Shown in pieces: positions 32,630 to 49,975 of a stretch of 64,000 nt of DNA. Position 1 is the stretch's first letter. Each line of letters opens with the position of its first letter. Both the position numbers and the translations under genes were made by a program. Source of the stretch: Sinorhizobium sp. RAC02 (GTDB lineage Bacteria; Pseudomonadota; Alphaproteobacteria; Rhizobiales; Rhizobiaceae); contig NZ_CP016452.1 in assembly GCF_001713395.1 (NCBI RefSeq), forward strand, positions 186,001 to 250,000. Direction: 5' to 3'. The notes below the pieces were generated by a model. That model was not told where the DNA came from and did no database searches. It saw only the letters and a list, made by a program, of their open reading frames with translations.

Positions 32630-32705
32630 GATGATGCACGTCGACTGATGGGAAGGGTGATGTTACGTTGTTGATGACTTGGTGGTTGCTGGCCAATCAG
32701 GCGCG

Positions 32706-34219: not shown

Positions 34220-34939
34220 ATGGCCCGCAGTGATCGTCTCTTCCGCCTCCTCCAGGCGCTTCGCACTCTCCCCTCCCCGGTGACGGCAGCGAGCCTTGCC
34301 GAGGAGACCGGCGTATCGTTGCGTTCGCTCTATAGGGACATCGACAGCCTGCGCGCCGCAGGCGCCGTCATCGATGGTGAGCGCGGCTTCGGCTACCGGC
34401 TGACGGAGGACATCGCCTTGCCGCCGCAGACATTCACACGGCTTGAAATCGAAGCTTTGGTGCTCGGCCTTGCGGAGGTGCAGCATATGGGTGAGCCGGC
34501 TCTCGTGGCGGCCGCAGGTGCCGTGCTTTCGAAGGTCACGGCAACGCTGCCCGACCGACTACAACGCCAGGCTCTGCATGCCGTCTCACAGGTCTATCGG
34601 TTCGACCGCCGCGATCCGCCAACCGTCGATGTCGGCCTTCTGCGCGAGGCCTGCTGGCAAGAGCACGCTGTGGTGATAGGCTATGTGGACGCGGAGCAGC
34701 GACGGTCCGATCGGCAAGTGCTGCCGCTGGCGATCGTCTATCTTGAGCGTGTGTTGGTGCTGCTTGCCTGGTGTTGCTTGCGCCAGGATTTCCGAAAGTT
34801 CCGCGTCGACCGCATCACGGATATCCAGGTGACGGAAGTGAGTTTCCGCCCCCGCCGCGTTCCGATGCTGAGGGACTTCGTTGCCATTCTGAACGCCGGC
34901 GCACCCGAAACATCGAAGATGATCTTGAGCGGCCAATAG
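34220..34939 (+). CDS. YafY-type HTH/WYL transcriptional regulator
   Basis: 239 aa. The N-terminal HTH_11 (about 5-60) reads 'RLFRLLQALRTLPSPVTAAS' and 'LAEETGVSLRSLYRDIDSLR'. A WYL domain (about 135-230) contains 'VDAEQRRSDRQVLPLAIVYL' and 'KFRVDRITDIQVTE'. WYL regulators respond to nucleic acid or small ligands. It is divergent from the GST gene with a 93-bp spacer, the usual arrangement for a regulator and its target. Confidence 0.9.
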   Translation: MARSDRLFRLLQALRTLPSPVTAASLAEETGVSLRSLYRDIDSLRAAGAVIDGERGFGYRLTEDIALPPQTFTRLEIEALVLGLAEVQHMGEPALVAAAGAVLSKVTATLPDRLQRQALHAVSQVYRFDRRDPPTVDVGLLREACWQEHAVVIGYVDAEQRRSDRQVLPLAIVYLERVLVLLAWCCLRQDFRKFRVDRITDIQVTEVSFRPRRVPMLRDFVAILNAGAPETSKMILSGQ

Positions 34940-35091
34940 CCAAAACGACGATGCGGCCGGTGTTACCACGGACGGTTCGGACTGCGTTTCGCAGATGCAG
35001 GACATGCCCTAACGGCCGCGTTGGGGCGCAATGCCGTCACCGTGAGTGGGCGGCATGAACTCGAGCAAAAATGCCTTGCTCGCGTCTTCGC

Positions 35092-35109
35092 CTTGATGGG
35101 AATCGAACC
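35092..35109. repeat. 18-bp direct repeat, left copy
   Basis: CTTGATGGGAATCGAACC occurs here and at 47128-47145 in the same orientation, bracketing the moc-like gene cluster. The core GGAATCGAACC is the complement of a tRNA T-loop, as at integration sites, but the arms do not fold as a tRNA T-stem. Confidence 0.6.
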
Positions 35110-35168
35110 ATCGACACTTGATCTTCTCCGATAGGCTTGGGGCGCTACAAGCACTTAATTGGAACAGG

Positions 35169-36074
35169 TCAGAATTTCGGCGGTGTCACGCCAGCCTTAC
35201 GATAGGCCGCGATCACCGAATTGGCCATCAGCATGGCGATGGTCATCGGCCCGACACCACCCGGAACCGGGGTGATCGCGCCAGCAATCTCGGAAACCGC
35301 GTCATAGGCGACATCGCCCACCAGACGGCTCCTGCCCGCGCCGCCCTCCGGCGCATCGATGCGGTTGATGCCGACATCGATGACAGTGGCGCCCGGCTTC
35401 ACCCAGTCGGCTTTCACCATTTCCGCACGGCCGACGGCAGCGACGAGGATATCCGCGCTACGGCAAACACCGGCGAGGTCCTTCGTGCCCGAATGCCCGA
35501 TCGTCACCGTCGCATTGGCATGGAGCAGCAATTGCCCCATCGGCTTGCCGAACAGGTTGGAGCGGCCGATGACGACGGCCGCCAGACCCGTCAGGTCCTC
35601 GCCATGAACGGAGCGGACAAGGCGCATGGCGCCTGCCGGTGTGCAGGAAATCAGGCCGGTAGCCAGATCGCCGGTCGCAAGCTTGCCGGCATTGACGACA
35701 TGCAGGCCGTCGACGTCCTTCTCCGGCTGGATCGATTGGATGATCGCATCTGCGTCGAGGTGCTTCGGCAGGGGAAGTTGCACCAGAACTCCGTGCACGG
35801 CGGCATCCGCGTTCAGCGAAGCCACCAGGCTTGCGAGATTCTCTTGCGTGGTCTCCTCCGGCAGCGTGTACTGGGTGGAGTTGAAGCCGCATTCCTTGGC
35901 CAGGCGCCCCTTGGCGCCGACATAGGTGTGGCTTGCCGGATCATCCCCGACGATAACGACCGCAAGCCCGGTCTTCACCCCTGCCTCGTCTTCGAGCGCC
36001 GAGGTCGCGGCCTTCACAGCCTCGATCACCGACGCCGCGACTTTCTTCCCGTCAATGCGCGTCGCAATCCCCAT
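35169..36074 (-). CDS. folD: Bifunctional methylene-THF dehydrogenase/cyclohydrolase
   Basis: 301 aa, standard length. Motifs: '[16 protein letters not shown]' with the catalytic Lys, '[18 protein letters not shown]' and the NADP-site '[17 protein letters not shown]', ending '[20 protein letters not shown]'. It oxidises 5,10-methylene-THF to 10-formyl-THF. Its stop-to-start spacing with purU is 3 bases, and both follow the ferredoxin reductase gene, so here it looks like a dedicated second copy that drains C1 units made by oxidative demethylation. A housekeeping folD is expected elsewhere (inference). Confidence 0.95.
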
Positions 36075-36077
36075 GGT

Positions 36078-36962
36078 TCACCCCATGCGCTCGGAGGCGT
36101 AGCTTCCCGGGCTCGGCGGGAAGACGATGGTCTTGTTGCCGTTCATGAAGGTGCGGTGGTGAATGTGCGCATGCACGGCACGCGCCAGAACCTGGCTCTC
36201 CACGTCCCGGCCGATCGACACATAATCTTCCGCCGACTGCGCATGCGTGATGCGCGCCACGTCCTGCTCGATGATCGGACCCTCGTCGAGGTCTTCGGTG
36301 ACATAGTGCGCCGTCGCACCGATCAGTTTTACACCGCGTTCGAACGCCTGCTTGTACGGGTTCGCTCCCTTGAACGATGGCAGGAACGAGTGGTGGATGT
36401 TGATGATGCGGCCCGACATCTTCTTGCACACCGCATCCGACAGGACCTGCATGTAGCGGGCGAGCACGATGAGTTCCGCACCGGACTGTTCCACCACTTC
36501 CATCAGCCGTGCTTCGGCCTGCGGCTTGTTCTCCTTCGTCACCTTGATTTGGTAGAACGGGATGTCGTGGTTGACGATGACCTTCTGGTAATCGAAGTGG
36601 TTGGAAACGACGCCGACGATGTCGATCGGCAACGCGCCGATCTTCCAGCGGTAGAGCAGGTCGTTGAGGCAATGACCGAAGCGCGACACCATGAGCAGTA
36701 CCTTCATGCGCTCGTCGCTGTCGTTGAAGCGCCAGGTCATGGCGAACGTCTTGGCGACCGGCGCGAAGCCGGCCTTGATGTCCTCCTCCGATACGCCTTC
36801 CTGGGACAGAAAGGTGAGGCGCATGAAGAACAGGCCGGTTTCGATGTCGTCGAACTGCGACGAATCCGAGATGTAACACCCCTTTTCGGCGAGGTAGCCG
36901 GTGATCGCGGCGACGATGCCGCGGGTCGATTGGCACGATACTGTCAGGACGTGGGAGGTCAT
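36078..36962 (-). CDS. purU: Formyltetrahydrofolate deformylase
   Basis: 294 aa. The N-terminal ACT domain (1-85, 'TSHVLTVSCQSTRGIVAAIT') precedes a formyltransferase-like domain with the catalytic Asn-His-Asp set in 'NIHHSFLPSFKGANPYKQAF' and 'GATAHYVTEDLDEGPIIEQD'. It hydrolyses 10-formyl-THF to formate and free THF. In demethylation operons of Rhizobiales and pseudomonads, purU and folD recycle folate loaded with methyl-derived carbon. Formate dehydrogenase genes are not in the window. Confidence 0.95.
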   Translation of the reverse strand: MTSHVLTVSCQSTRGIVAAITGYLAEKGCYISDSSQFDDIETGLFFMRLTFLSQEGVSEEDIKAGFAPVAKTFAMTWRFNDSDERMKVLLMVSRFGHCLNDLLYRWKIGALPIDIVGVVSNHFDYQKVIVNHDIPFYQIKVTKENKPQAEARLMEVVEQSGAELIVLARYMQVLSDAVCKKMSGRIINIHHSFLPSFKGANPYKQAFERGVKLIGATAHYVTEDLDEGPIIEQDVARITHAQSAEDYVSIGRDVESQVLARAVHAHIHHRTFMNGNKTIVFPPSPGSYASERMG

Positions 36963-37001
36963 CTTTTCTCTTGTTTTCTGCTTGAAGTCTGGAATGAGCC
37001 G

Positions 37002-38228
37002 CTAGGCGGCGAGCAGCTGCTTCAGTTTGATATCTGGGTTTGCAAGCGCTGCGGGATCGGGCCGTCTGCCGGCCGCAATCAGCATTTCGGCGAGGCGAAT
37101 GTCGCGGGCGACCGCATTGCCCGGTCCGATACCGCTTGCGGCAAGCAGCCGACCTTCTCCATCGAGATGGAACAGGACAAAGGCATCAGGGGAGAGATTG
37201 CGCCGGATGATCGTCGTCGCCCCATCGGCAAGCCCTGCGACCTGGAGCGTCAGCTCGTATTGGTCCGACCAGAACCACGGCACGGATGTCCGGATATCGG
37301 CCGCGCCCGTCATGTTCGCCGCGGCGCGAATACCCTGCTCCTGCGCGCTTCGCCAGGATTCCAGGCGCAGGCGTCGGTCACCGAAGTGGACCGAGGGAAA
37401 AGAACAGCAGTCACCGGCGGCAAAGATGTCTGGATCGCTGGTGCGCAGGCTGCTGTCGACCGAGATGCCGTTCTCGATGGCGAGGCCTGCCCTCGCAGCA
37501 AGCTCCGTATTCGGAACGGAGCCGATCCCGACAACCAGAGCGTCTGCGACAACGCGGTCCGCGTGCTCAAGGTCAATCGAGACGTCAGCGTCCGTCTCCG
37601 TGACGGACCGGATTTTCACCCCGCAGCGGATATCGACACCCTCGGCCGCGTGGCGATCAGCGATCAGCGCCGCGATCTCCGCGGGTACGCCGCGCGAAAG
37701 GATACGCGGTAGCCCTTCGAGCAGGATCACCGACGCACCCAGCCTTCTTGCACTGGCTGCAAGTTCGAGGCCAATAAATCCGCCGCCGAGGATGACAATG
37801 CACCGGCCAGCTTGCAGGAATGGCTGGAGCGCCAAGGTGTCCGCATGTGTCCGCAGCGAGCGGATGCGCCCAAGCGGAGAGGCAACATTGGCGAGCTCTC
37901 GCGGTCGCGCGCCCGTCGCCAGAAGCAACCTGTCGTATCCGAGCGTGGTGCCATCCGAGAACCTAACGGTCTTTTGCTGACGGTCGATATCGGTTGCGGT
38001 CACCCCGGTCCGCACTGCAATATCGAGGTCTTCGTAGCGACCGGCATAGGCAATCCATTTGGGCTCGGCACCCTGCTGAAGGCCCTCCTTGGACAGGGGC
38101 GGCCGTTCGTAGGGCAACAGGGTCTCGCTACCAACGAGTGTCACATCACCCGCAAAACCACGCTCGCGTAAGGTCAGGGCAGCACGAGCACCGCACTCGC
38201 CTGCGCCAATGATAACGAAAGAAGTCAT
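37002..38228 (-). CDS. FAD-dependent ferredoxin reductase (MocF-like)
   Basis: 408 aa. FAD motif 'FVIIGAGECGARAALTL' at the N-terminus, 'PPLSKEGL' typical of oxygenase-coupled reductases, NAD motif 'IVILGGGFIGLELAASARRL' (about 143-162), and second FAD motif 'DIFAAGDCC'. A C-terminal reductase dimer domain follows. It should move electrons from NADH to the Rieske ferredoxin encoded at 41332, and thus to the membrane di-iron oxygenase at 44753, as proposed for MocF in rhizopine demethylation. It lies 39 bases upstream of purU. Confidence 0.9.
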   Translation of the reverse strand: MTSFVIIGAGECGARAALTLRERGFAGDVTLVGSETLLPYERPPLSKEGLQQGAEPKWIAYAGRYEDLDIAVRTGVTATDIDRQQKTVRFSDGTTLGYDRLLLATGARPRELANVASPLGRIRSLRTHADTLALQPFLQAGRCIVILGGGFIGLELAASARRLGASVILLEGLPRILSRGVPAEIAALIADRHAAEGVDIRCGVKIRSVTETDADVSIDLEHADRVVADALVVGIGSVPNTELAARAGLAIENGISVDSSLRTSDPDIFAAGDCCSFPSVHFGDRRLRLESWRSAQEQGIRAAANMTGAADIRTSVPWFWSDQYELTLQVAGLADGATTIIRRNLSPDAFVLFHLDGEGRLLAASGIGPGNAVARDIRLAEMLIAAGRRPDPAALANPDIKLKQLLAA

Positions 38229-38258
38229 TAAACGAGCCTTTGCTGTTGTCTGGGCCGG

Positions 38259-38546
38259 TTACTGGTTCGTCCGGGCGCCGGCGATCAGGTATTGGCGAAA
38301 GGCGGCTTTCATCTCTTTGAAGCTCGCATACCCGCTCCGGGACGCGAGGCGGATGATGGTGGTCCCCGAGACGCCGCAGGTTCGCGCCACCGACTGCAGG
38401 GAGCCGAACGCGATGATCTCCGGCTTGCAGAGAAGCAGCCGCATCGCTTGTTCCAGAAGGGTCGGAAATTCGATACGGCGTTCGGCAATCAACTGCTTGA
38501 GATCTCGAATGCTCGGAGGAGCCTTCACGCTTGCGGATGCCAACAT
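38259..38546 (-). CDS. Stand-alone RpiR-type HTH protein (no SIS domain)
   Basis: 95 aa. 'SIRDLKQLIAERRIEFPTLL' through 'QSVARTCGVSGTTIIRLASR' and 'SGYASFKEMKAAFRQYL' matches the N-terminal HTH_6 domain of MurR/RpiR regulators. Full-length members have ~280 residues with a C-terminal sugar-phosphate-binding SIS domain, which is entirely absent: a stop follows 'GARTNQ'. It may be a truncated gene or a minimal DNA-binding protein. Being within the operon and not at its end, it is retained in a tight gene string (30 bases before the reductase start). Confidence 0.75.
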   Translation of the reverse strand: MLASASVKAPPSIRDLKQLIAERRIEFPTLLEQAMRLLLCKPEIIAFGSLQSVARTCGVSGTTIIRLASRSGYASFKEMKAAFRQYLIAGARTNQ

Positions 38547-38699
38547 TCCAATCTCCTCGAAATGCGCAGGAAGGACTTTCGGGCGGGATAACGCGACCGT
38601 TTGGATCGGGCTTTCTGCTGCCGGAGGCTCGGCGCCTCCTTCAACAAGGCCTTGAGGACGTTCCCGACGGTGGTGCGCCGGGAAGGTCCTTCGCCAAAC

Positions 38700-39701
38700 T
38701 CAGCCAACGAGGCTTGCAAGCGAGACAGGGTCACCGGTTTGGATGGAGAGGGTCGCCGCTTCCGCCATGGCAAGTGCGGCAACGCCGTCTTCCAGCGTCA
38801 CCGGCAGCGGCGTTCCACCGTTCACCGCCTCCACGAAGGCCGCCCATTCCGCGGCATAGGCCGGCATGTAGCGCTCGAGGAAGAAGTAGGTGGGCTTTGC
38901 CCCCGTCACGCCCTGCGTCGTCGATTTCACCACGGTGTTTTCGAGCATGTTCTGCGCCTGGAGCAGACCTTCGGAACCGAGCAGTTCCACGCGCTGGTCG
39001 TAACCGTAGACGGCCCGGCGGCTGTTCTTGATGACGGCGATGCGGCCATTCGCATAGGTAAGCGTCACCACGGCCGTGTCGACATCACCCGCCGCCCCGA
39101 TTTCCGCATCGACGATGGACGAGCCGACTGCCGTCACCGTGACAGGCGGCGCGCCCATGATGAAGTTCGCCATGTCGAAGTCATGAATCATCATGTCCCG
39201 GAAAAGGCCACCCGACACCTTGATATAGGAAACCGGGGGGGGTGCTGGATCGAAGGACGTGATGGAAAGAAGTTCGGGCTTGCCGATCTCGCCGGCATCG
39301 ACCGCCTTCTTGAGGGCGGAGAAGTTCGGATCGAAACGGCGATTGAAGCCGATCATCACCGGACGTCCGTTGGAGGAGACCGCCTTCTGGCAGGCTCGCG
39401 CCCGCGCCAGGCTGAGATCGACCGGCTTTTCGCACAGCACCGCCTTGCCGGCAGCCGTTGCCCTTTCGATCAGGTCGGAATGGGTGTCCGTCGAGGTGGC
39501 GATCAGCACGGCATCGATCGTGCCGTCCTCCAGAATGGCGGATGTGTCGCGTGCCTCCGCGCCATATTGGGCTGCAATCTTTTCGGCGGCAGCCGTGTTG
39601 ATATCGGACACGGCGACGAGCGTGCTGCCGGGATGGCTGGAAATCGCCGTGGCATGCACGCCGGCAATGCGGCCGGCGCCAAGAAGGCCAACTTTAAGCA
39701 T
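38700..39701 (-). CDS. Gfo/Idh/MocA-family cyclitol dehydrogenase (IolG/MocA-like)
   Basis: 333 aa. The Rossmann domain opens 'LKVGLLGAGRIAGVHATAI'; the catalytic region has 'CEKPVDLSLARA' and 'MIGFNRRFDPNF', and the substrate lobe 'GLFRDMMIHDFDMANFIMG', as in inositol 2-dehydrogenase. It would oxidise a ring or sugar hydroxyl with NAD. In the moc pathway the MocA homologue acts on the inosamine after demethylation; here the exact substrate is unproven. It lies 17 bases after the PanB-like gene. Confidence 0.92.
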   Translation of the reverse strand: MLKVGLLGAGRIAGVHATAISSHPGSTLVAVSDINTAAAEKIAAQYGAEARDTSAILEDGTIDAVLIATSTDTHSDLIERATAAGKAVLCEKPVDLSLARARACQKAVSSNGRPVMIGFNRRFDPNFSALKKAVDAGEIGKPELLSITSFDPAPPPVSYIKVSGGLFRDMMIHDFDMANFIMGAPPVTVTAVGSSIVDAEIGAAGDVDTAVVTLTYANGRIAVIKNSRRAVYGYDQRVELLGSEGLLQAQNMLENTVVKSTTQGVTGAKPTYFFLERYMPAYAAEWAAFVEAVNGGTPLPVTLEDGVAALAMAEAATLSIQTGDPVSLASLVG

Positions 39702-39718
39702 GGGTTTTCCTCTTCTGA

Positions 39719-40543
39719 TCAGAGACCGAGTTCGGCCTTGAATGCGTTGAATTCCGTGTCGCCGATCGCGACATTGTGCTGGGGCTGCGGATAGGCGCCC
39801 GTGTTCACGTCCGCGATGAATTCGCGGAAGGCCGCGATGCGTTCTTTCTGAAGCTTGGCGAATTCGGCGGCGAAGTTACGATACGTCTTGGCGTGGCGCG
39901 GTCGATGTCCATCGGTGTGACCGAGCACATCTTCCGCGAAGAGATATTGCGCATCGGCGCCCGGGCCGGCCCCCATGCCGAGCATGATCATCGACGTGTT
40001 GCTGGAAATCAGTTTACCCACCCGGTCCGGCACGACCTCCAGCTCCGCGCCGAAGCAGCCGATCGCTTCGAGTTGTTTGACATGGCGGAAAACCTTGGTT
40101 GCCTCCTCGGCAGTCTTGCCCACCGCGCGAAACCCGGTCCAGGTGATATAGGAGGGAATGAGGCCGACATGAGCAACGACCGGGACGTGATTGTCGCAGA
40201 GTACCTTCTGGATATCGAGTGAGGCGGCGCAGTAAAAACAGTCGCCGCCCATGGCGGAGAAATGGAAGGCGGCCCGCAGATAATCCTCAGCGGTTGCCAG
40301 TGGACGGCCCTCGAACGTGCCCCATCCGCCAAACGGAAGCCCGACCTGCACGAAGCAACGGCCAGCCGCTTCGCGCATTTCGGGCGAGAAGAAGCGCCCC
40401 TCGATCGAGAGCATATGGATGCCCGCGGCGTCCGCAGCAGCGGCCTCGTCAACGGTGGTGACATAGAGCATCGAGATTTTCTCACCCCGCGCTTTCATGG
40501 CGCGGATGTCGGCAACGGTCGGGCGCGTGTTCTTGTGAACCAT
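39719..40543 (-). CDS. PanB-like (ketopantoate hydroxymethyltransferase family) protein
   Basis: 274 aa, near the family length. Aligned by eye to PanB: 'ISMLYVTTVDEAAAADAAGI' fits the first strand, 'VPVVAHVGLIPSYI' keeps the active-site His, 'AIGCFGAELEVVPDRV' the catalytic Glu, and 'GHTDGHRPRHAKTYRNF' the C-terminal motif. The two metal-binding Asp positions look changed: Gly-Asp-Ser is Ser-Ile-Glu here, and the Asp of the 'DLPF' strand is Gly ('QVGLPFGG'). It lies 4 bases from the TIM-barrel gene in an operon with folD and purU, so a methylene-THF-linked retro-aldol reaction is conceivable. The reaction is unknown. Confidence 0.82.
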   Translation of the reverse strand: MVHKNTRPTVADIRAMKARGEKISMLYVTTVDEAAAADAAGIHMLSIEGRFFSPEMREAAGRCFVQVGLPFGGWGTFEGRPLATAEDYLRAAFHFSAMGGDCFYCAASLDIQKVLCDNHVPVVAHVGLIPSYITWTGFRAVGKTAEEATKVFRHVKQLEAIGCFGAELEVVPDRVGKLISSNTSMIMLGMGAGPGADAQYLFAEDVLGHTDGHRPRHAKTYRNFAAEFAKLQKERIAAFREFIADVNTGAYPQPQHNVAIGDTEFNAFKAELGL

Positions 40544-40547
40544 GGGA

Positions 40548-41327
40548 TTACACCGCGAATGCGTTGCGGAAGGCTTCGAGGGCCGCCTCAGGATCTCCCG
40601 AAGCGAAGGCTTCCATGCCGACCGGGCCGGTATATCCCATTGCCTGGAGCCCTTTGGCGATGCCGTGCCAGTTCACCTCACCGGTGCCGGGTTCGCAGCG
40701 ACCGGGAACGTCGGCCACCTGGATTTCGCCGATCCATGGCAGGCATTTTCGGCACAGCGCAATCAGGTTCCCCTCGCCGATCTGCGCATGGTAGAGGTCA
40801 AGATTGAGCCGCAAGCGTGGATGATTGATGCTCGAAACGAGCGCCAGCGTGTCCTCAGCCCGTCCGAACGGCACGCCCGGATGGTCGACGGGCAGGTTGA
40901 GGTTTTCCAGCGTAAAGATGACGCCTTCAGCTTCGGCCATGTCGGCCACACGGCACAGCGTGTCGCGCGCCTTCAACCACATCGCGCCGGTCACGACCTC
41001 GATGGGTTGGACGGGAAGTCCCCCCTCGCCCAGCCCCGTGCCGTGCAGGTTCAGCCGCTGCACACCGAGACGCCTGCCGATCTGCGCCGTTTCGCGCGCG
41101 GTGCGCAGAAGCTCGGCAGCGCCCTCGTCGTCGGTAAGCCGGCCGGTAAGATAGCCATTCATGATGGTGAAGGTGGCGCCGGTGGCTTTTAGCTTCGCCA
41201 GATCGTGCTCCGGCCAGTTCCACAAACCAACACCAAAGCCCATATCCTTGAGACGGGAGGCCCGCCATTCGATGGGGCGGTCCCGCCAGATCATTTCGGC
41301 GCAGGCCGCCAGTGCAAACTGTGTCAT
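40548..41327 (-). CDS. TIM-barrel isomerase, hydroxypyruvate isomerase-like (MocC/IolE group)
   Basis: 259 aa, AP-endonuclease-2/xylose-isomerase-like barrel. Family motifs: 'IFTLENLNLPVDHPGVPF' (metal Glu), 'LRLNLDLYHAQIGEGNL' (metal Asp, His), 'IGEIQVADVPGRCEPGTGEV' (Gln) and 'PVGMEAFASG' (metal Glu). The last two are typical of hydroxypyruvate isomerases such as Hyi and OtnI. In moc and iol clusters, barrels of this superfamily dehydrate or isomerise keto-cyclitols (IolE, MocC). Which activity applies here is open. It lies 4 bases after the Rieske gene. Confidence 0.87.
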   Translation of the reverse strand: MTQFALAACAEMIWRDRPIEWRASRLKDMGFGVGLWNWPEHDLAKLKATGATFTIMNGYLTGRLTDDEGAAELLRTARETAQIGRRLGVQRLNLHGTGLGEGGLPVQPIEVVTGAMWLKARDTLCRVADMAEAEGVIFTLENLNLPVDHPGVPFGRAEDTLALVSSINHPRLRLNLDLYHAQIGEGNLIALCRKCLPWIGEIQVADVPGRCEPGTGEVNWHGIAKGLQAMGYTGPVGMEAFASGDPEAALEAFRNAFAV

Positions 41328-41331
41328 TGTC

Positions 41332-41643
41332 TCAAATCTCTATGAAAACGTCGCCATCCTCGACCTTGACCGGCCAGGTGCGAAGGTTGATGCAGGCAGG
41401 CGCACGCATCGCCTCACCGGTCTTGTAGTCGAAGTGCGCACTATGCTTCGGACACTCGATGATACCGTCCATCACCAGGCCATCAGCGAGGTGCACGTGT
41501 TCATGTGTGCAGATGCCGTCGATGCAGAAGAATTCGTCGTCCGGACTGCGGATCACCAGAAAGGTGCGTCCGCTGTGATCGAAACGAATCTGCTCTTCGA
41601 GTTCGACGTCCTCGGTTGCGCAAGCGCGGGTCCAGGTCCCCAT
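41332..41643 (-). CDS. Rieske 2Fe-2S ferredoxin (MocE-like)
   Basis: 103 aa from ATG 41643; upstream in-frame sequence overlaps the ABC gene frame-shifted and is not used. The Rieske ligands are Cys45-x-His47 ('ICTHEHVHLADG') and Cys64-x2-His67 ('ECPKHSAHF'). It is a small soluble ferredoxin with no oxygenase domain. With the FAD reductase at 37002 it would shuttle electrons to the membrane oxygenase at 44753, the MocDEF scheme. It could alternatively serve an oxygenase elsewhere, but no other is in the window. Confidence 0.93.
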   Translation of the reverse strand: MGTWTRACATEDVELEEQIRFDHSGRTFLVIRSPDDEFFCIDGICTHEHVHLADGLVMDGIIECPKHSAHFDYKTGEAMRAPACINLRTWPVKVEDGDVFIEI

Positions 41644-41686
41644 GTCTTTATCCTTTGGCAGTTCAGGGTCTGTTGAAGCGGTAGCG

Positions 41687-42514
41687 TCAGGCCGACGCAC
41701 CCGCATGCTGAGGCACATGACCGTCATGCGTCTCCATGTAGCCGTCGATCTGGGCTTCGAGTTCCGCCATGGTCTCGCCACCGGCCATCAGGTCGGTGAT
41801 CTCTTCGCGCGACTTCTCCCCCTTGCGGAAATCGGCGGCGACTGCACCACGGATCAACACCGCGAAGTGATCGCCGACCGCCATGGCATGCATGACCTGG
41901 TGGGTGATGAAGACCACCGCGAGACCCCGCCGCTTCGCCTCGTTGACGATCCGCAGGACATGGGTGGCCTGCTTCACACCCAGCGCCGCCGTCGGCTCGT
42001 CCAGGATCAGGACCTTCGCGCCGAAATGTACGGCGCGGGCAATGGCGAGGGATTGCCGCTCGCCGCCCGAAAGCCCGCCGACCAGGCGGTCGCCATCCTC
42101 GATCCGCGTTATGCCGAAGTCGCGAACCGCCTTGACGGCGATCTCGTTCGCCTTTTTCGGGTCGAAGATCTTGAACGGTCCCCAGCCCTTGGTCGGCTCG
42201 ACGCCAATGAAGAACGATCGGCCGATGCTCATCAGCGGGAACGTGCCACCGAACTGGTGAACCGTTGCGATGCCGCGGTTGCTGGCATCACGGGGGCCGG
42301 CGAATTCGATGGGCTTGCCGTCCATCTCGATCGTGCCGGAATTCGGGCGATACACGCCGGAAAGCGTCTTGATGAGCGTCGACTTGCCGGCACCATTGTC
42401 GCCGAGCAGGCAGAGAACTTCACCAGGACAGATATCCAGCGAGATGTCGTTGAGGACGTCGATCGGGCCAAAGGACTTGCAGATATTGGTGAGTTTCAGA
42501 ATCGGCGTAGACAT
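41687..42514 (-). CDS. CUT2 sugar/cyclitol ABC importer ATPase, single-domain
   Basis: 275 aa from ATG 42514 (GAGG 7 bases upstream). Walker A 'LGDNGAGKSTLIKTLSGVY', signature 'LSGGERQSLAIARAVHFGAK' and Walker B 'VLILDEPTAALGV' with switch His 'ITHQVMHAMAV'. Most CUT2 ATPases (RbsA) are fused tandem domains of ~500 aa; this is a single-domain form like FrcA-type proteins of rhizobia, used for fructose or inositol. It partners with the permease and binding protein genes upstream. Confidence 0.95.
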   Translation of the reverse strand: MSTPILKLTNICKSFGPIDVLNDISLDICPGEVLCLLGDNGAGKSTLIKTLSGVYRPNSGTIEMDGKPIEFAGPRDASNRGIATVHQFGGTFPLMSIGRSFFIGVEPTKGWGPFKIFDPKKANEIAVKAVRDFGITRIEDGDRLVGGLSGGERQSLAIARAVHFGAKVLILDEPTAALGVKQATHVLRIVNEAKRRGLAVVFITHQVMHAMAVGDHFAVLIRGAVAADFRKGEKSREEITDLMAGGETMAELEAQIDGYMETHDGHVPQHAGASA

Positions 42515-42522
42515 GATCGACC

Positions 42523-43578
42523 TCACTTCTTCTTCGGCGAATAGGAGAGCGCCATGCTTCGAAAAGTGTTGTTCATGAGCACCGCCAGAAGCAGCATCAC
42601 CCCGATGATCAGGCTCGACCAGTTACGGTCGAAGGTCGTGAAATAGATACCCTGGTTGACCACGGCGAAGGTGATGGTGCCGAAAAAGATGCCGACGATC
42701 GAGCCGAAGCCACCTGTGAGCAGCACGCCGCCCACGACCACCGAGATGATCGAGTTGAAGATGAAGGACATGCCGGCGGAAACCTGCGCGGAGTTGAACA
42801 GGATCGCCTGGCACATGCCGACGAAGGCCGCACTCGTTGAGGAGAGGACGAAGAGGGCGATGGTCAGGCGGGCCGTCGGAATGCCGGCATTGCGCGCGCT
42901 GACCTTGTCACCGCCCATGGCGAAGATCCAGTTGCCATAGGGCGAATAGTGGATCACGTAGATGTAGATCGCCGTCAGCGCCAACCACCAGAAGATGATG
43001 ACCTGGAACGTGTTGGCCACGAACTGGCCGAAGAGAAATTTTGCCAGTTCCGGCGCCTTGAGGGCAACGCTCGTGGTGCCTGTGAGCAATACAGACAGGC
43101 CGAGCACGAGGCCTGCGACAGCAAACAGTGTGCCGAGCGTGACGATGAGGGACGGCACGTTGGTGCGCACCACGAGGAATCCGTTCACCAGCCCGACGAC
43201 GACACCCAGCCCAAGGGTCGCAGCGATACCTAGCCAGATCGGAAGGCCGTAATAGCCAGAGATGATCGCGACCGTCATGGAGCCTGCCGGGATCATCGAG
43301 CCGATCGAGATGTCCAGTTCCCCGGCGATCATCAGCAAACCGATGGGAAAAGCGACGATTCCGAGGTTGGCGGCAACGTTCAGCCAGCTTGCGGCACCGG
43401 CGGGCTTCAGGAAGTCGATGCTTCCGAACGCTATGAAAAAGGCGAAGACACCGAAAAGGCCAAGAAAGGCGCCTGCTTCAGGCCGTCGGAAAAGGCCGCC
43501 GATGGAAAAGCTTGTTGCCGATGATGGGGCCGGTGCTTTGGCAACGACGATCGGCTGGCTTGCGGTTTTCGAGTTCAT
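42523..43578 (-). CDS. CUT2 sugar/cyclitol ABC importer permease
   Basis: 351 aa with eight to ten hydrophobic segments, for example 'AFLGLFGVFAFFIAFGSIDF', 'GLLMIAGELDISIGSMIPAG' (a hallmark of RbsC/FrcC permeases) and 'VGGVLLTGGFGSIVGIFFG'. It forms a homodimeric channel. The ATPase start lies 8 bases downstream of its stop. A stem-loop separates it from the binding-protein gene. Confidence 0.94.
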   Translation of the reverse strand: MNSKTASQPIVVAKAPAPSSATSFSIGGLFRRPEAGAFLGLFGVFAFFIAFGSIDFLKPAGAASWLNVAANLGIVAFPIGLLMIAGELDISIGSMIPAGSMTVAIISGYYGLPIWLGIAATLGLGVVVGLVNGFLVVRTNVPSLIVTLGTLFAVAGLVLGLSVLLTGTTSVALKAPELAKFLFGQFVANTFQVIIFWWLALTAIYIYVIHYSPYGNWIFAMGGDKVSARNAGIPTARLTIALFVLSSTSAAFVGMCQAILFNSAQVSAGMSFIFNSIISVVVGGVLLTGGFGSIVGIFFGTITFAVVNQGIYFTTFDRNWSSLIIGVMLLLAVLMNNTFRSMALSYSPKKK

Positions 43579-43615
43579 GATGGTTCCCTACCCGGCTTTG
43601 CCGTGTTGTGGCGGT

Positions 43616-43648
43616 GGCCGCTCCCTGGGGAGGTCACAGGGAGCGGCC
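43616..43648 (-). terminator. Stem-loop between binding protein and permease genes
   Basis: GGCCGCTCCCT and AGGGAGCGGCC form a perfect 11-bp stem around an 11-base loop, in the gap after the binding-protein stop. Such structures protect the upstream mRNA or dampen read-through, so that the binding protein is made in excess. Confidence 0.65.
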
Positions 43649-43662
43649 CTGAAGCGCGCCGG

Positions 43663-44637
43663 TCAGCGCGCGCCCTTCGACACGCCTGCAAGCGTCGATT
43701 CGATGTTCGACGCATCGACGATGCCCGGTCCGGTCAGAACCGGCCTCACCGGCAGATCCGTTCCGAAATCGATGTGGGAGGCAAGCAGCGACACTGCGAG
43801 AAGGGACTGGAGATAGGGCTGCTGATCGATCGCAAAGAGCTGCGCACCGTTTTTGATGCGATCGAGGCTGGCTTCGTTGAAGTCGAACGAGCCAAGCTTG
43901 ACGACCTCGACCTTGCCGGCCTGCTGAATCCCGCTTGCGGCGGCATCGGCGTCGCCGGCAGCGATCGTGATCACGCTGTCGATAGTGCCATCTTGGGAAA
44001 GCGTCGCCTTGACGGCTTCCGCAATCGCGGTCGGATCCCCGAAGCTTGTCGCCGGCAGCGGCAGCTGTTTGCCCGCACCGCCCGCCTTGGTGACACCATC
44101 AATCACGCCCTTGCAGCGTGCTTCTTGGTTGGCGCTGCCCGGCAGCGTGTTGACGCAGAGCACATTCTTCTGACCGTTTTTGCCAAAATAGTCTCCGCCA
44201 GCGACACCGGCGATATACTCATCGGATCCGACATAGTTGATTGCGCCGAGTTCCTTGGCCTTTTCGAGAGAACCGGCGTTCATCAGGATGACCTTGATGC
44301 CACTGTCGACCGCCGCCTTGATCGCTTCGTCTTCGGCTTCGGGAACCCAGTTGGGAATGACGATGCCGCTGACCCCCTGGCTGATGGCGGTGCGCACGAG
44401 ACCGGCCGCGTCCGGGCCGAGATTGTCATAGGTCTGAAGTTGCAGGTAGGTGACCTTGCCGCCGTTCGCCTCGACGACAAACCGGCTGTCATCGACACCC
44501 TTCTTGATCTTGGTCCAGAAGGCATCGTCGGTCTTGCCGCCGACGACCGCGATGTCGGCAGCGATGGCGACGCTTGCGGTAAGACAGATGGCAACCGTGG
44601 TTGTGAGCGCTTTCGTCATGGTGATCAGTTTGGTCAT
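43663..44637 (-). CDS. CUT2 ABC importer periplasmic binding protein (MocB-like)
   Basis: 324 aa from ATG 44637, preceded by AGGGGAGGAAA. Signal peptide (1-26) ends 'TASVAIAAD'. The mature protein begins 'IAVVGGKTDDAFWTKIKKGV' and has 'QGVSGIVIPNWVPEAEDEAI', 'NYVGSDEYIAGVAGGDYFG' and 'VLCVNTLPGSANQEARCKGV', typical of Peripla_BP_4 sugar-binding proteins. In the rhizopine system, MocB is a member of this family. The ligand should be a sugar, inositol or methylated inosamine (inference). Confidence 0.92.
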   Translation of the reverse strand: MTKLITMTKALTTTVAICLTASVAIAADIAVVGGKTDDAFWTKIKKGVDDSRFVVEANGGKVTYLQLQTYDNLGPDAAGLVRTAISQGVSGIVIPNWVPEAEDEAIKAAVDSGIKVILMNAGSLEKAKELGAINYVGSDEYIAGVAGGDYFGKNGQKNVLCVNTLPGSANQEARCKGVIDGVTKAGGAGKQLPLPATSFGDPTAIAEAVKATLSQDGTIDSVITIAAGDADAAASGIQQAGKVEVVKLGSFDFNEASLDRIKNGAQLFAIDQQPYLQSLLAVSLLASHIDFGTDLPVRPVLTGPGIVDASNIESTLAGVSKGAR

Positions 44638-44710
44638 CGGGTTTCCTCCCCTGTGTCCGCCAAGTGGCGGGTTGCAATGTTGACTGGATGGGTCGAAGCG
44701 ACCCTTTTTG

Positions 44711-44736
44711 AAAAGCACCCGCCTCCTCGCGGGTGC
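44711..44736 (-). terminator. Rho-independent terminator after the di-iron oxygenase gene
   Basis: On the minus strand, GCACCCGC/GCGGGTGC pairs 8 bp around a 6-base loop and is followed by TTTTC. It lies 17 bases after the oxygenase stop and 74 before the binding-protein start, so the oxygenase may be transcribed partly as its own unit. Confidence 0.6.
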
Positions 44737-44752
44737 TGAGCACCATCTGAGA

Positions 44753-45775
44753 TCAGGAGTTTGCGCGCGCCGTCTTGGCGTTTAGGCGCTCCTTCTTCTT
44801 CTGGAAGCGGGCCTGCATCTGCACGTCCCCGTCTTTCGTGCCGTCGTGCCAGGTGCCGAACCACTTATCGAGCGGGATCAGGCCATCGCCGCCGTAGTTC
44901 ACCTCGAAATATTTGTGGTGAAGGTAGTGGGCATAGGCATGGGTATCGATCGGCGTTTCCTCGGTGACCTCCAGCTTGTCGAAGCCGATGTGGCCATTGA
45001 CCGCGCCGAAGCCGGCAATGTGAAGCTGGAACATCGCCACGATCGGGTTCGACGGGATGACGAGGTGCCAGAAGGCGACGGCATGGTAGAGAAAACCCTC
45101 GACCGGATGCATGGAGAGCGACGACCACGGCGACGGGTTGACTGAATTGTGGTGCACCGAGTGGATCCAGCGATAGAGCGGACCCCAGTGGATCAGCCGA
45201 TGGATGAAGAAGAAGTGCACCTCGTGGATCATCGGTGCCACGGCGACAAGGAAGGCGAGATAATACGGATTGTCCGCCCAGCTCAGCCACGGCACCCAGC
45301 CATTGGCGAATACCCAGAGGAACAAGACTTCGACCAGCGTCCACAGCGGGATCGAAATGAAGAACGAGCGCAGGAAGTTGTCGATGTTCTGGCTTTTGAA
45401 CCAGAAGACATCGGACGGCTGCTCGCCCGGGAATTTGGCATTGTACTTGAAGCGGTTGCCCTGCCTGCGCTTGACGTAGAAGAGCAGTTCGACCGAGCCG
45501 TAGAAGACAAAAATCGCACCCGCATTCACGGCGTAGAGCCAGAGCGGCCAGCCCCAACTCAGCGTCTTCATCACCTCGACGTCGGGCACGACGTAGAGCC
45601 AGTAAAGCAGGGCCGTCGCCATATGGAAGGCATTCCACGGCCAGACATATTCCGGCAGCCACTTCAGCACGGCCATCAGCTTGGGCGGCCAGGCCCAGAA
45701 CGGCGCAACCTCGATATGTCCGTTCGGTGCCCAGTCACCGCGCTTGTTGCGCGTTCCAAAGTTGTGATCGTCCAT
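44753..45775 (-). CDS. Membrane di-iron oxygenase, sterol desaturase/fatty-acid-hydroxylase superfamily (MocD analogue)
   Basis: 340 aa; of three clustered ATGs (45781, 45778, 45775) the last has the best distance to GGAGG. Several membrane helices ('FHMATALLYWLYVVPDVEVM', 'WLYAVNAGAIFVFYGSVELL', 'PLWTLVEVLFLWVFANGWV') precede the eight-His pattern: 'HRLIH', 'HSVHH' and 'HYLHH', plus His in 'HPVEGFLYH'. These bind two irons in integral-membrane hydroxylases. With the Rieske ferredoxin and reductase of the same cluster it would hydroxylate, and so remove, an O-methyl group, as proposed for MocD. MocD itself is of the desaturase/AlkB branch, so this is an analogue. Confidence 0.88.
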   Translation of the reverse strand: MDDHNFGTRNKRGDWAPNGHIEVAPFWAWPPKLMAVLKWLPEYVWPWNAFHMATALLYWLYVVPDVEVMKTLSWGWPLWLYAVNAGAIFVFYGSVELLFYVKRRQGNRFKYNAKFPGEQPSDVFWFKSQNIDNFLRSFFISIPLWTLVEVLFLWVFANGWVPWLSWADNPYYLAFLVAVAPMIHEVHFFFIHRLIHWGPLYRWIHSVHHNSVNPSPWSSLSMHPVEGFLYHAVAFWHLVIPSNPIVAMFQLHIAGFGAVNGHIGFDKLEVTEETPIDTHAYAHYLHHKYFEVNYGGDGLIPLDKWFGTWHDGTKDGDVQMQARFQKKKERLNAKTARANS

Positions 45776-46074
45776 CATCATGCCTCCGGGCGCGGCGCGC
45801 CTTGTCGTCAAAAGGGGAGGAGAAACGTGCCGGCGCTCTGTCGCGGTCACAGCACGACGGTCCCCGGGCGAAAGCCCAAAGCGTGCAGTTCCAACGATGT
45901 CGAAGGCAGTTCCTCCAGGCGTGTGCGTCGCGTTTCGCGCCACCCGCCGTCCTCTGAACAGACAATGCCAACTTGACGTCTATTAAATCAAGGCGCATTT
46001 CTCTTTCAGGGTACGAACGTATCATTCGTCTCATAAAGCCGATTAAATGATATATTTCATCTCATGAGGATTCC
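45776..46074. promoter_or_regulatory. Divergent control region with LacI-type dyads
   Basis: This region separates the oxygenase gene from the LacI regulator. TGATATATTTCA (46048-46059) is palindromic at 10 of 12 positions and lies 15 bases before the lacI start. ACGAA/TTCGT arms flank a 7-base centre at 46013-46029. Either could be the regulator's operator. No gene is present. Confidence 0.5.
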
Positions 46075-47103
46075 GTGCGAAGACCGACCATCCGCGATCT
46101 CGCCGAGGCGGCCGGCGTTTCCATCGCCACGGCCAACCGGGTTTTGTCCGGTGCGGAAAATGTGAGCGGCAGCACGCGGGAGAAGGTCCAGGCGGCGGCG
46201 GCGACGATCGGCTTCTACGGACTGGGGGCAATACAGGCGCGCAATGCTGCGGCGCGCCCCAAATACCGATTCGGCATACTTCTCCTCCAGCCGCACCGCC
46301 CGTTCTACAGGCTGGTCGCGCGCGCCCTCGTGGACGCGGCCGCACAAGCCACCTCGGCCGACGTCGATCTCAAGATCGAGCATCTGGAGGACCTCTCGCC
46401 GCAGAATACAGCCGAACGGGCGCGGGCGCTGGCCGAAGAATGCGACGCCATCTGCATCACCACGGCCGTGCACCCTGTCGTCACCCAGGCGCTCGCTGAC
46501 ATCCAGGCAAAGGGCATCCCGGTCTTCGCGCTGATCTCACAGCTCGCCGCAACGGGGCAGATCCACTATATCGGGCTCGACAACTGGAAGGTCGGCAGAA
46601 CCGCGGCCTGGGCCTTCGATCACATCTGCAAGGTGCCCGGCAAGATCGGCATCCTTATGGGCAATCCGCGCTATCGTAACCAGGAAATGAACGAGACCGG
46701 CTTTCGCTCGTACTTTCGCGAACACGCGCGGGACTTCGTGCTGCTCGAACCTCTCTCGACATTCGAATCCTCAGCCGTCGCCCAGGAAATGACGGAGCGG
46801 CTACTGAACGATCATGCAGATCTCGCGGGCCTCTACGTCGCCGGCGGTGGGATCAGCGGCGCCCTCGCCGCATTGCGCGCCAGCGACCGCGCTGGCAAGT
46901 TAGTGGTCGTCGGCTACGAGCTGATGGACAACGTCAGGGCCGCCCTGCTCGATGGAACGATAACCCTCTCCATCGCCCATCCCCTCGCCAGCCTGGCAAA
47001 CGAAACGATCACCGGCATGATAAGGGCGATGACGTCAAACGGCGAAAATGCCAGCCATACGAGGATCGTCCCATTTGACGTTCATACGCGTGAGAATCTC
47101 TAG
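46075..47103 (+). CDS. LacI-family transcriptional regulator
   Basis: 342 aa with GTG start 46075. The HTH (residues 4-25) reads 'PTIRDLAEAAGVSIATANRV' and the hinge 'STREKVQAAAATIGF'. The periplasmic-binding-like effector domain (about 65-335) is of the Peripla_BP_4 type: 'RFGILLLQPHRPFYRLVARA', 'IHYIGLDNWKVGRTAAWA', 'DLAGLYVAGGGISGALA'. It is divergent from the oxygenase/importer/demethylation genes and is the likely repressor relieved by the imported cyclitol or sugar. Classic moc loci use MocR, a GntR/aminotransferase-type regulator, instead. Confidence 0.92.
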   Translation: MRRPTIRDLAEAAGVSIATANRVLSGAENVSGSTREKVQAAAATIGFYGLGAIQARNAAARPKYRFGILLLQPHRPFYRLVARALVDAAAQATSADVDLKIEHLEDLSPQNTAERARALAEECDAICITTAVHPVVTQALADIQAKGIPVFALISQLAATGQIHYIGLDNWKVGRTAAWAFDHICKVPGKIGILMGNPRYRNQEMNETGFRSYFREHARDFVLLEPLSTFESSAVAQEMTERLLNDHADLAGLYVAGGGISGALAALRASDRAGKLVVVGYELMDNVRAALLDGTITLSIAHPLASLANETITGMIRAMTSNGENASHTRIVPFDVHTRENL

Positions 47104-47127
47104 CGCCAAGCAACCATCCTTCAAGCT

Positions 47128-47145
47128 CTTGATGGGAATCGAACC
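47128..47145. repeat. 18-bp direct repeat, right copy
   Basis: CTTGATGGGAATCGAACC, identical to 35092-35109, lies 25 bases after the LacI stop. The sequences flanking the two copies differ. Confidence 0.6.
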
Positions 47146-47316
47146 GGTGACGTCGAGGAGGAGTTGAGTGAGCCGGCGTCCCAGAAGCTGATTATCATCG
47201 CTTGGGACATTTGTTGAACCAGGTTGTGAAACTGGAACCAGAGATCGAGCTGTCGCTGGGAAAAGCTCTGATTTAGTCAAAGCTCGGCAACGCAATCATT
47301 CTGATCGACAGACGAA

Positions 47317-48083: not shown

Positions 48084-49697
48084 TCAAGGCATGTCCCTGC
48101 CGAAGAGCGCGATCAACCCGTCCGAAACGACGCCTTGCCAGACCAGATAATCATGGCCGCCCGCGTAGTCCCGATAGATGACGGGAATATCCTTTGCTCG
48201 CAGCACATCCCGCAAATGCCGGCTTGTATCGAGAATGCCGGCCGTGCCATGCGCGCCGGCTTCAAAGAGCCCGGCGGAGAGGAAGAAGCGCAATGGCAGC
48301 TTCGGACCTAGGGCGATCAGCCCCGCCACGTGTTCCCTCTGATCCGCCGGTGTGCCGGGTGGGCTCCACCAGAAGGAGCCGGACATCGATAGGACATTGC
48401 CGAAAACATCCGGACGCCGCATGGCGATCGTTGCTGCCGCCAGCCCGCCGTAGCTGGAACCGGCAAGCGCTGTGCGTTCCGCCGGGGCTTTCAGTCCCGT
48501 TTCCTTCTCGACAAGAGGATAAAGTTCGGTGGCCATGAAGTCAGCAAAAGCCGGATTGGCCGGCAACTCCCGCGCTCGCGCTTCCCGGTCGGGATTGGCG
48601 ATGAACACGGCAATCACTGGCGGCACGGCGCCGCCAGCGATCATGTTGTCGAGGATGCGCGGCACGGGCACGCGCTCAAGATACTGGTCCGCATCGAAGA
48701 CGAAGAGCAGGATCGTGTCCTTGCGTGCCGGGTCGAAACCCGCCGGGCGGTAGAGCGTGATGTCTCGGCGATTGCCAAGCAGGCGGCTTTTGATCGACAG
48801 CCGCGCCAGCGTGCCGAACGGAGCGCCCTTATCTTCAAGCCAGGGCTGTGGCGGGGCGCCGGCAAGCTCCAGCACGGACTCCTGATTATAGACGTCGCTC
48901 GTCTTGGCTGGCCAAGGATGACGGTTCAGCGGATCGGCCTTGGCGGTCGACAGGATGGCGATACGCCGATCACGCGCAGTGCCAGGTACGTCCGGCACAT
49001 CGAAGGCGAGCTGATAGGACAGGCGTGTGTCGTTAGGCACCTCGAAGCTCTTGAACCAGATGTCCGACCCGGCAAGCCTCTGCAAGTCCTCATGGTCGCC
49101 GCTCGGCGCACCGAACAGGCGGATGTTCCGCCGCGCGCCGCGGCCGAGGAAGGTAACAATCTTGCGCCCCTCCTGCCCGTCTTCGACGAGCGGCGTACCG
49201 TGCGTTTCGACCATCGCCCAGAAGCCGCTTGTTGTCTCGCCGGCTGCAATCTTCGTGGCGATCGTCGCGATAGCGGGGCTCAGATAGACAGGCGAGGCCG
49301 GGACTTGATCCGCGACGCCAACTTTCCGGTCGATGCCGAGCGCGTAGTGCCCTTCGTGCTTCGTCGTGACGATCAATCGTTCCTCCGCGCCCTCAGCGAC
49401 GAACTGAAACTCGACGACGCCCCCTGCGCCGTCGGCAAGCTGCCGCAGATGTTTCCCCGCGCCGTCGACAAGGTCGAGATCAAACGCGCCGGTCCCGACC
49501 TGCAACTGCCCCTTGATATAGTCACCCGTCTCGGCACCCGGATCGAACACCTGCCTTGTGCCAGCGGTTCCGCCCTTCCCCGCTGTTAGCTCGCCGGCGG
49601 GAAGGGGCAAGGCCTGCAATGTTTCCGCCGCAAGCACGTTTGTTATCGACAGGATCACCGAGAGAACGCCGAGCACTATCGTTTTGCGCACTACCAT
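48084..49697 (-). CDS. Enterochelin esterase-like (Fes family) siderophore esterase, exported
   Basis: 537 aa. Signal peptide 'VLGVLSVILSITNVLAAE'. An N-terminal Fes-type beta domain (about 200-290) precedes an alpha/beta-hydrolase of the esterase-D/Fes family with 'DTILLFVFDADQYLERVPVP', nucleophile elbow 'TALAGSSYGGLAAATIAMRR' and catalytic His 'YAGGHDYLVWQ'. It would hydrolyse an ester-linked ferric siderophore to release iron; export suggests action in the periplasm. Its ATG overlaps the stop of a truncated TonB receptor, showing that the two once formed a coupled pair. Confidence 0.88.
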   Translation of the reverse strand: MVVRKTIVLGVLSVILSITNVLAAETLQALPLPAGELTAGKGGTAGTRQVFDPGAETGDYIKGQLQVGTGAFDLDLVDGAGKHLRQLADGAGGVVEFQFVAEGAEERLIVTTKHEGHYALGIDRKVGVADQVPASPVYLSPAIATIATKIAAGETTSGFWAMVETHGTPLVEDGQEGRKIVTFLGRGARRNIRLFGAPSGDHEDLQRLAGSDIWFKSFEVPNDTRLSYQLAFDVPDVPGTARDRRIAILSTAKADPLNRHPWPAKTSDVYNQESVLELAGAPPQPWLEDKGAPFGTLARLSIKSRLLGNRRDITLYRPAGFDPARKDTILLFVFDADQYLERVPVPRILDNMIAGGAVPPVIAVFIANPDREARARELPANPAFADFMATELYPLVEKETGLKAPAERTALAGSSYGGLAAATIAMRRPDVFGNVLSMSGSFWWSPPGTPADQREHVAGLIALGPKLPLRFFLSAGLFEAGAHGTAGILDTSRHLRDVLRAKDIPVIYRDYAGGHDYLVWQGVVSDGLIALFGRDMP

Positions 49698-49975
49698 TGT
49701 TTTTTCAACGTCGCGACGATGCTGCGACCTTCACCATAGAAGCAGGCATAGGCACTGGCGCACGATGCGACGTAGCGCTCGTCCCCGATATTCTTTACGT
49801 TGAGTTGGAGGGAAAGCCCCTGCAAGTCCGGGCTCTTTGCGCCGAAGTCGTAGGAGGCCATGGCGTCGAACAGGGTCACGGCGCCGACCTTGAACGTATT
49901 GGTGGGATCGCCCTGGCTGGTGCCGATATAGCGCACGCCGCCGCCCACCGTCAGGCCCTCAAGATCGACCCTCCA
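49691..49975 (-). pseudogene. TonB-dependent siderophore receptor, C-terminal remnant
   Basis: The open frame 'VDLEGLTVGGGVRYIGTSQG' through 'LNVKNIGDERYVASCASAYA' to 'SIVATLKKQW' is the last ~90 residues of an FhuA-type receptor, with the usual terminal aromatic. About 600 N-terminal residues (plug and most of the barrel) are missing. The frame begins at a junction with the ABC ATPase fragment near 49970. It overlaps the esterase start. Inactive. Confidence 0.85.

Follow-up and report, generated by a model that had tools for sequence, protein, structure and literature searches.

The mocDEF model of rhizopine catabolism reportedly goes back to Bahar 1998. The three genes encode an oxygenase, a ferredoxin and a reductase (PMC10107442, PMC3538637; all PMC sources are cited here for the portions of their text that were accessible), and MocD has been grouped with the membrane fatty-acid desaturases (PMC2593844). 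In rhizobia, LacI-family (FixV-like) genes are oriented divergently to mocDEF, with TIM-barrel genes in the vicinity (PMC3538637), and in Pseudomonas syringae mocDEF adjoins a second xylose-isomerase-like gene, with the rest of moc missing (PMC5132102), an arrangement that fits a broader role for the module. For the disposal of one-carbon (C1) units on folate, the purU-mabO-folD operon on pAO1, part of the nicotine pathway, is a published precedent (PMC3891541). Here, we analysed a cluster of Sinorhizobium sp. RAC02 in which twelve minus-strand genes lie divergent from a plus-strand LacI gene, at positions 35169-47103 of the window, i.e. the whole stretch of 64 000 nucleotides examined (C3:186001-250000, in a genome of 6.63 Mb in three contigs). 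Every gene that the initial annotation had named in this region was recovered by Pfam and NCBIfam scans.

The cluster shares with mocDEF and the other moc genes a membrane oxygenase, a MocE-type Rieske ferredoxin and an FAD reductase, as well as an inositol-type dehydrogenase and a TIM barrel. In contrast to moc, its oxygenase is of the PF04116 and not the PF00487 type, MocR is absent, and the operon itself holds a CUT2 importer, a PanB-like gene and the folate genes folD and purU.

We consider, at a probability of about 0.6, that the LacI-controlled operon demethylates an O-methyl-inositol of the pinitol/ononitol class oxidatively and that the PanB-like protein moves the released C1 unit to tetrahydrofolate (THF). 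The ABC importer would bring the substrate into the cell, where the PF04116 oxygenase, receiving electrons via the MocE-type Rieske ferredoxin and the FAD reductase, would hydroxylate the O-methyl group, giving an O-CH2OH hemiacetal. Its hydroxymethyl group, or the resulting formaldehyde, would be taken up by the PanB-like protein, which would then load THF to give 5,10-methylene-THF, which FolD would oxidise to 10-formyl-THF and PurU would split into formate and THF. The freed inositol would be oxidised by IolG, rearranged by the TIM-barrel protein and passed into the inositol pathway; two IolE genes are present elsewhere in this genome.

The PanB-like protein and its neighbourhood

The most telling part of the cluster is the PanB-like protein (39719..40543, minus strand), a candidate C1 transferase with an altered active site. 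It matches PF02548 (127.1 vs 28.7 bits) and falls under the panB equivalog (TIGR00222, 87.1 vs 207.55 bits), and in profile searches its family matches solved PanB chains with E values of 6.2e-31 to 5.7e-23. The canonical PanB of this genome is encoded by another, third gene (342.3 bits), to whose product the window protein is about 27 % identical. Database relatives number 4551 at E<=1e-10, a total that may include canonical PanB, and those with a source-given name among the 120 listed are all called ‘3-methyl-2-oxobutanoate hydroxymethyltransferase’.

We compared the active sites of 31 aligned PanB-like members in Escherichia coli PanB numbering, in which we take Asp84, Lys112 and Glu114 to be the canonical metal/keto-acid residues and Glu181 and His136 to be catalytic. 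The Asp84 position is Gly68 and the Lys112 position Tyr104, the latter followed by Cys105, each in 31/31 members, and the Glu114 position holds Ala (24 members), Ser (6) or Thr (1). Retained in all 31 are the His136 and Glu181 positions, as His125 and Glu169, respectively; the Asp45 region aligned poorly. The same replacements occur in a third PanB-like type, from Neotabrizicola. The family shares with PanB (1m3u, 3vav) the fold family and the conserved Glu and His positions, and differs from it in the replaced metal/keto-acid positions and in its linkage to oxygenases. Canonical retro-ketopantoate hydroxymethyltransferase activity, the simple reading of the homology, was set aside on this residue comparison. 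We tentatively propose, at somewhat under even odds, that the clade represents a new folate-dependent, metal-free transferase class capturing the hemiacetal or formaldehyde, perhaps via the invariant Tyr-Cys pair.

Searching species genomes for the PanB-like protein gave 382 relatives, of which the best 80, mostly from Rhizobiales and Rhodobacterales, were analysed (loci are numbered with the prefix L). Among these 80 loci the order LacI / oxygenase, binding protein, permease, ATPase, Rieske, TIM barrel, PanB-like, often followed by IolG, is strongly conserved. Neighbours were counted as tblastn matches within 10.5 kb of the PanB-like gene, a limit chosen over 8 kb as some oxygenases lie 8-10 kb off, in the 63 loci whose upstream sequence extended over 9 kb or more, the other 17 being too short to judge; the species behind these loci are related, and the counts are not independent events. 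An oxygenase of either family lies near the PanB-like gene in 61/63 loci and a MocE-type Rieske gene in 60/63, followed by the binding protein (58), LacI (57), the TIM barrel (53) and IolG (36), with PurU (14), the reductase (11) and FolD (7) being rarer. The recurrence of this gene set around the best 80 of the 382 relatives is more than chance. Clusters keeping the set without the oxygenase, which the initial annotation had named as evidence against demethylation, were sought, and two of the 63 loci proved to be without one: in L109 the available stretch begins inside the ATPase gene and has no oxygenase match, and L111 is a partial set (PurU, a TIM barrel, two LacI genes and the PanB-like gene) adjoining a conjugation gene. 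A Rieske match is missing from L094, L111 and L114.

The oxygenases near PanB-like genes belong to two families. In L085, L099, L112 and L115 a desaturase stands with Rieske and PanB-like genes; the L115 enzyme is PF00487 by Pfam, and the other three share its BLAST cluster. In a Trueperaceae assembly (L114), a PF00487 gene immediately precedes the PanB-like gene; IolG-like, TIM-barrel and importer genes lie nearby, and there is no Rieske match in this neighbourhood. The form with a PF00487 oxygenase, a Rieske and a PanB-like gene is also found in a second cluster of the RAC02 genome (L180, C1:222001-242000), which carries on one side LacI, a TIM barrel, a binding protein and other importer genes together with an IolG above cutoff, and on the other a PF00487 oxygenase, a MocE Rieske (174.4 bits), a reductase and a second PanB-like protein, the last two being 65 % and, by alignment, 54 % identical to their counterparts in the window. 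Rhizobium leguminosarum bv. viciae 248 has a TIM barrel and LacI followed by desaturase, MocE, FAD oxidoreductase and a ‘3-methyl-2-oxobutanoate hydroxymethyltransferase’, and on pSymB of Sinorhizobium meliloti ABS7 the same four gene kinds (desaturase, MocE, FAD oxidoreductase and ‘PanB’) follow LacI. These two clusters, which have the form of L180, share with the window cluster the regulator family, the Rieske, the reductase and the PanB-like protein, but have the other oxygenase family, and their PanB-like proteins are approximately 52-53 % identical to that of the window; no FolD or PurU match was found in the two stretches examined. We take the R. leguminosarum 248 cluster to be the published LacI-mocDEF arrangement (PMC3538637), and if so, the PanB-like protein is an unremarked fourth member of it; the term ‘panB’ does not occur in the accessible text of that paper.

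A third MocE-type cluster of the same genome (L121, C3:879001-899000) comprises LacI, a PF04116-type oxygenase (60 % identical to that of the window), a Rieske, a binding protein, a reductase and a TIM barrel, but no PanB-like gene. Plasmids of Shinella, Rhizobium and Paracoccus carry similar clusters.

Oxygenase, electron supply and substrate

The oxygenase (44753..45781, minus strand) matches PF04116 with 65.3 bits against a cutoff of 31. It had been described as an ‘eight-His’ membrane di-iron enzyme, and the family assignment is borne out; the number understates the conservation, since 11 His are invariant in 71/71 rows of the alignment and the number rises to 15 at a conservation of 90 % or more. 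Its separation from MocD, also suggested previously, is upheld by Pfam, with MocD's family taken from the literature (PMC2593844). The PF00487 matches of this genome all lie outside the window.

Among PF04116-type enzymes, alkylglycerol monooxygenase splits ethers via alpha-hydroxylation. The cluster oxygenase shares its family, and hydroxylation next to an ether oxygen is the chemistry of the alkylglycerol enzyme, which differs in being eukaryotic and pterin-dependent and in acting on a lipid.

Electrons would be supplied by the Rieske ferredoxin (41332..41643, minus strand; TIGR02377, 163.4 bits vs a cutoff of 136.15) and the FAD-dependent ferredoxin reductase (37002..38228, minus strand; PF07992 and PF14759). 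The Rieske reading frame was listed up to 41781; with the start at 41643 used here, the previously named ligands Cys45/His47/Cys64/His67 are correct.

Several genes point to an inositol-type substrate. The dehydrogenase (38700..39701, minus strand) is an inositol 2-dehydrogenase, IolG (TIGR04380, 434.2 vs 355 bits), and the genome has exactly three genes above this cutoff, two of which lie in the two PanB-like clusters. The xylose-isomerase-like TIM barrel (40548..41327, minus strand; PF01261), whose nearest solved chains are of the hydroxypyruvate-isomerase and ketose-3-epimerase types, is a candidate inosose isomerase or epimerase. The inositol/rhizopine-like CUT2 periplasmic binding protein (43663..44637, minus strand; PF13407) has 4ru1 as its closest solved chain in profile searches (7.4e-47, the next at 6.1e-24), a structure that is presumably an inositol complex.

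Two published observations may point to a methylated plant cyclitol. Among legumes, pinitol or ononitol production is described as widespread (PMC8730688), and in Rhizobium mesoamericanum, Mimosa exudate, whose main component by concentration is pinitol (145 uM), raised mocDEF homologues 1.53-2.11-fold, which the authors interpret as rhizopine catabolism (PMC5789663). The literature searched, which left out most subscription papers and was accessible in part, yielded no bacterial genes for the demethylation of pinitol or ononitol.

Folate genes and competing readings

Both folate genes of the cluster score above their cutoffs, i.e. the formyltetrahydrofolate deformylase PurU (36078..36962, minus strand; TIGR00655, 329.5 vs 285.95 bits) and the methylene-THF dehydrogenase/cyclohydrolase FolD (35169..36074, minus strand; NF010785, 472.3 vs 396 bits). 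In the 53 loci with sequence on both sides, which were used for these counts, PurU lies near the PanB-like gene in 12 and FolD in 6. The order reductase-PurU-FolD is seen in the window, L042, L043 and L045, reductase-FolD-PurU in L051, IolG-FolD-PurU in L052 and L053, and IolG-PurU-FolD-reductase in L110, and the linkage spans Rhizobiaceae, Mesorhizobium, a Comamonadaceae assembly and Neotabrizicola. The C1-disposal module of the initial annotation is thus present, but not as part of the core, the reductase, PurU and FolD being variable accessories.

On the Neotabrizicola plasmid (NZ_CP069371.1; L037, L204), LacI, a PanB-like gene and the oxygenase are followed, across the record start, by the binding protein, permease, ATPase, MocE, TIM barrel, FAD oxidoreductase, a second PanB-like gene, FolD, PurU and IolG. 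This cluster contains two different PanB-like genes, the first preceding the oxygenase and the second preceding FolD-PurU.

Five PurU genes of the RAC02 genome score above cutoff, the other four lying on contigs C1 and C3. One of these has a DAO+GCV_T protein nearby, and at L202 (C3:1915001-1925000) PurU-FolD stands beside GCV_T, glutamine-synthetase-like and glutamate-synthase-like genes. Both neighbourhoods resemble N-demethylation sets, that of L202 one of the N-methylglutamate or sarcosine type. The remaining two copies have no DAO/GCV_T-type neighbour among the proteins scanned. Like the window cluster, the pAO1 operon pairs a demethylating enzyme with PurU and FolD for C1 disposal on folate; it differs in that a flavin oxidase and not an oxygenase carries out the reaction, which is an N-demethylation, and no PanB-like protein is mentioned in the accessible text (PMC3891541). 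No GcvT-type protein was found in the window cluster, and by this argument from absence C1 transfer would most naturally fall to the PanB-like protein.

Several observations weigh against the proposed folate-coupled demethylation of an O-methyl-inositol. The PanB-like gene is nearly always found with an oxygenase, but the oxygenase is not always found with a PanB-like gene: a search of 20-31 kb at 1e-8 gave no PanB-like match for L034, L035, L038, L040 and L121, which have PF04116 oxygenases 56-60 % identical to that of the window, a Rieske and, in 4/5, a reductase match, so the oxygenase can do without this partner. IolG lies near just 31 of the 53 loci, and 41 have neither PurU nor FolD nearby. 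Since the four other PurU genes are 97 % identical to that of the window and two have adjacent FolD pieces, the PurU-FolD pair may simply be duplicating. The replacement of the canonical metal and keto-acid residues makes the use of folate by the PanB-like protein a guess.

The most credible alternative, though an unlikely one in our estimate, retains O-demethylation and gives the PanB-like protein another task, as a metal-free lyase, isomerase or dehydratase of TIM-barrel fold with the hydroxylated cyclitol as its substrate, formaldehyde entering folate or glutathione routes without it. The loss of the canonical residues, the scarcity of FolD/PurU near most loci and the surrounding TIM barrels and dehydrogenases would all agree with such a function, whereas the position of a PanB-like gene directly before FolD-PurU in Neotabrizicola argues for a link to folate, as does the fact that this is the sole protein of a folate-dependent family in the cluster besides FolD and PurU themselves.

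It is improbable that PurU and FolD are hitchhiking housekeeping copies in a cluster without a special C1 route. The five closely similar PurU genes of this genome and the small share of relatives with PurU nearby are what such copies would lead one to expect, but the two genes are separated by merely 3 bases in the window, and their linkage recurs in different orders across several groups.

Quite improbable, too, is a C-branched hydroxymethyl or methyl substrate, hydroxylated on carbon by the oxygenase and cleaved by the PanB-like protein in a retro-ketopantoate-type reaction that yields methylene-THF directly: the PF02548 homology and the FolD/PurU genes would suit it, but the positions presumed to bind metal and keto acid are Gly, Tyr and Ala/Ser/Thr in 31/31 members, and both IolG and the binding protein suggest inositols.

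A true moc system for rhizopine (3-O-methyl-scyllo-inosamine) is highly improbable and was rejected on binding protein score, regulator and oxygenase family, because, despite the MocE-family Rieske, the MocA-type dehydrogenase and a binding protein whose best NCBIfam match is the rhizopine one (NF052284), the latter scores 159.7 bits against a cutoff of 420 and so does not qualify as MocB, the oxygenase is PF04116 and not of the PF00487 MocD type, the cluster genes scanned include LacI and a short RpiR-type HTH protein instead of MocR, and the seven loci taken as a moc yardstick (binding protein above the rhizopine cutoff, in 7/394 family genomes) have no Rieske or oxygenase match within 13-20 kb. 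What stands of the earlier comparison with moc is its logic in outline, with the Rieske and IolG passing their cutoffs.

Regulator, operon layout and implications

The LacI-family regulator (46075..47103, plus strand), with a LacI HTH (PF00356) and Peripla_BP_4 (PF13407), is inferred to be a putative repressor of the cluster. The intergenic sequence contains an operator-like dyad, TGAGA-N7-TATCA on the minus strand (46048..46064), one mismatch from TGATA-N7-TATCA, and a second, degenerate operator-like element, TGATACGTTCGTACC (46010..46024, minus strand). The TGATA-N7-TATCA dyad occurs in 10/51 non-redundant LacI/oxygenase intergenic regions, whereas in 50 mononucleotide shuffles no dyad of this kind exceeded 2 regions; a wider pattern matched 25/60 regions, a figure without shuffle control. 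Matches of an earlier palindrome scan fell mostly within oxygenase coding sequence, and the pattern scan gave no operator-like dyad in the C1:222001-242000 cluster. LacI control had been presented as a departure from moc systems, which it is not, as LacI beside mocDEF is already on record (PMC3538637).

The listed oxygenase frame (to 45943) begins too early, homologues fitting a start at or near 45781, and translation of the binding protein probably starts at 44637. Downstream follow the ABC permease (42523..43578, minus strand; PF02653) and the ABC ATPase (41687..42526, minus strand; PF00005). The Peripla_BP_4 binding protein together with the BPD_transp_2 permease identifies a CUT2 importer. 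Whereas the ATPase of a typical CUT2 importer is a double-domain protein, that of the cluster has 279 aa and one ABC_tran stretch. The Rieske/TIM-barrel, TIM-barrel/PanB-like and PurU/FolD junctions have gaps of 3 or 4 bases. The short RpiR-type HTH protein (38259..38546, minus strand; 95 aa) scores 24.9 bits for PF01418, under the cutoff of 28.3, and has no sugar-binding (SIS) domain; a match was found within 8 kb at 17/80 of the loci related by the PanB-like gene. Within 34900-47300, none of the Rfam families scored up to its gathering threshold.

On one side of the cluster, at 32165-33083, open frames resemble pieces of an IS6-type transposase, as judged by eye. On the other, at 48084-51242, an enterochelin-esterase-like protein and an FecCD permease suggest a neighbouring siderophore uptake locus.

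The informative novelty of the cluster is not its LacI control but a PanB-derived protein tied to two oxygenase families. If it belongs to the new transferase class proposed above, mocDEF-type operons would have a fourth component that has been overlooked and that serves both families, and a whole group labelled as an enzyme of vitamin B5 (pantothenate) would be misnamed. Channelling of the C1 unit from oxygenase to folate would then explain how O-demethylation avoids free toxic formaldehyde. The cluster offers a precise, testable candidate for the bacterial demethylation of pinitol and ononitol.

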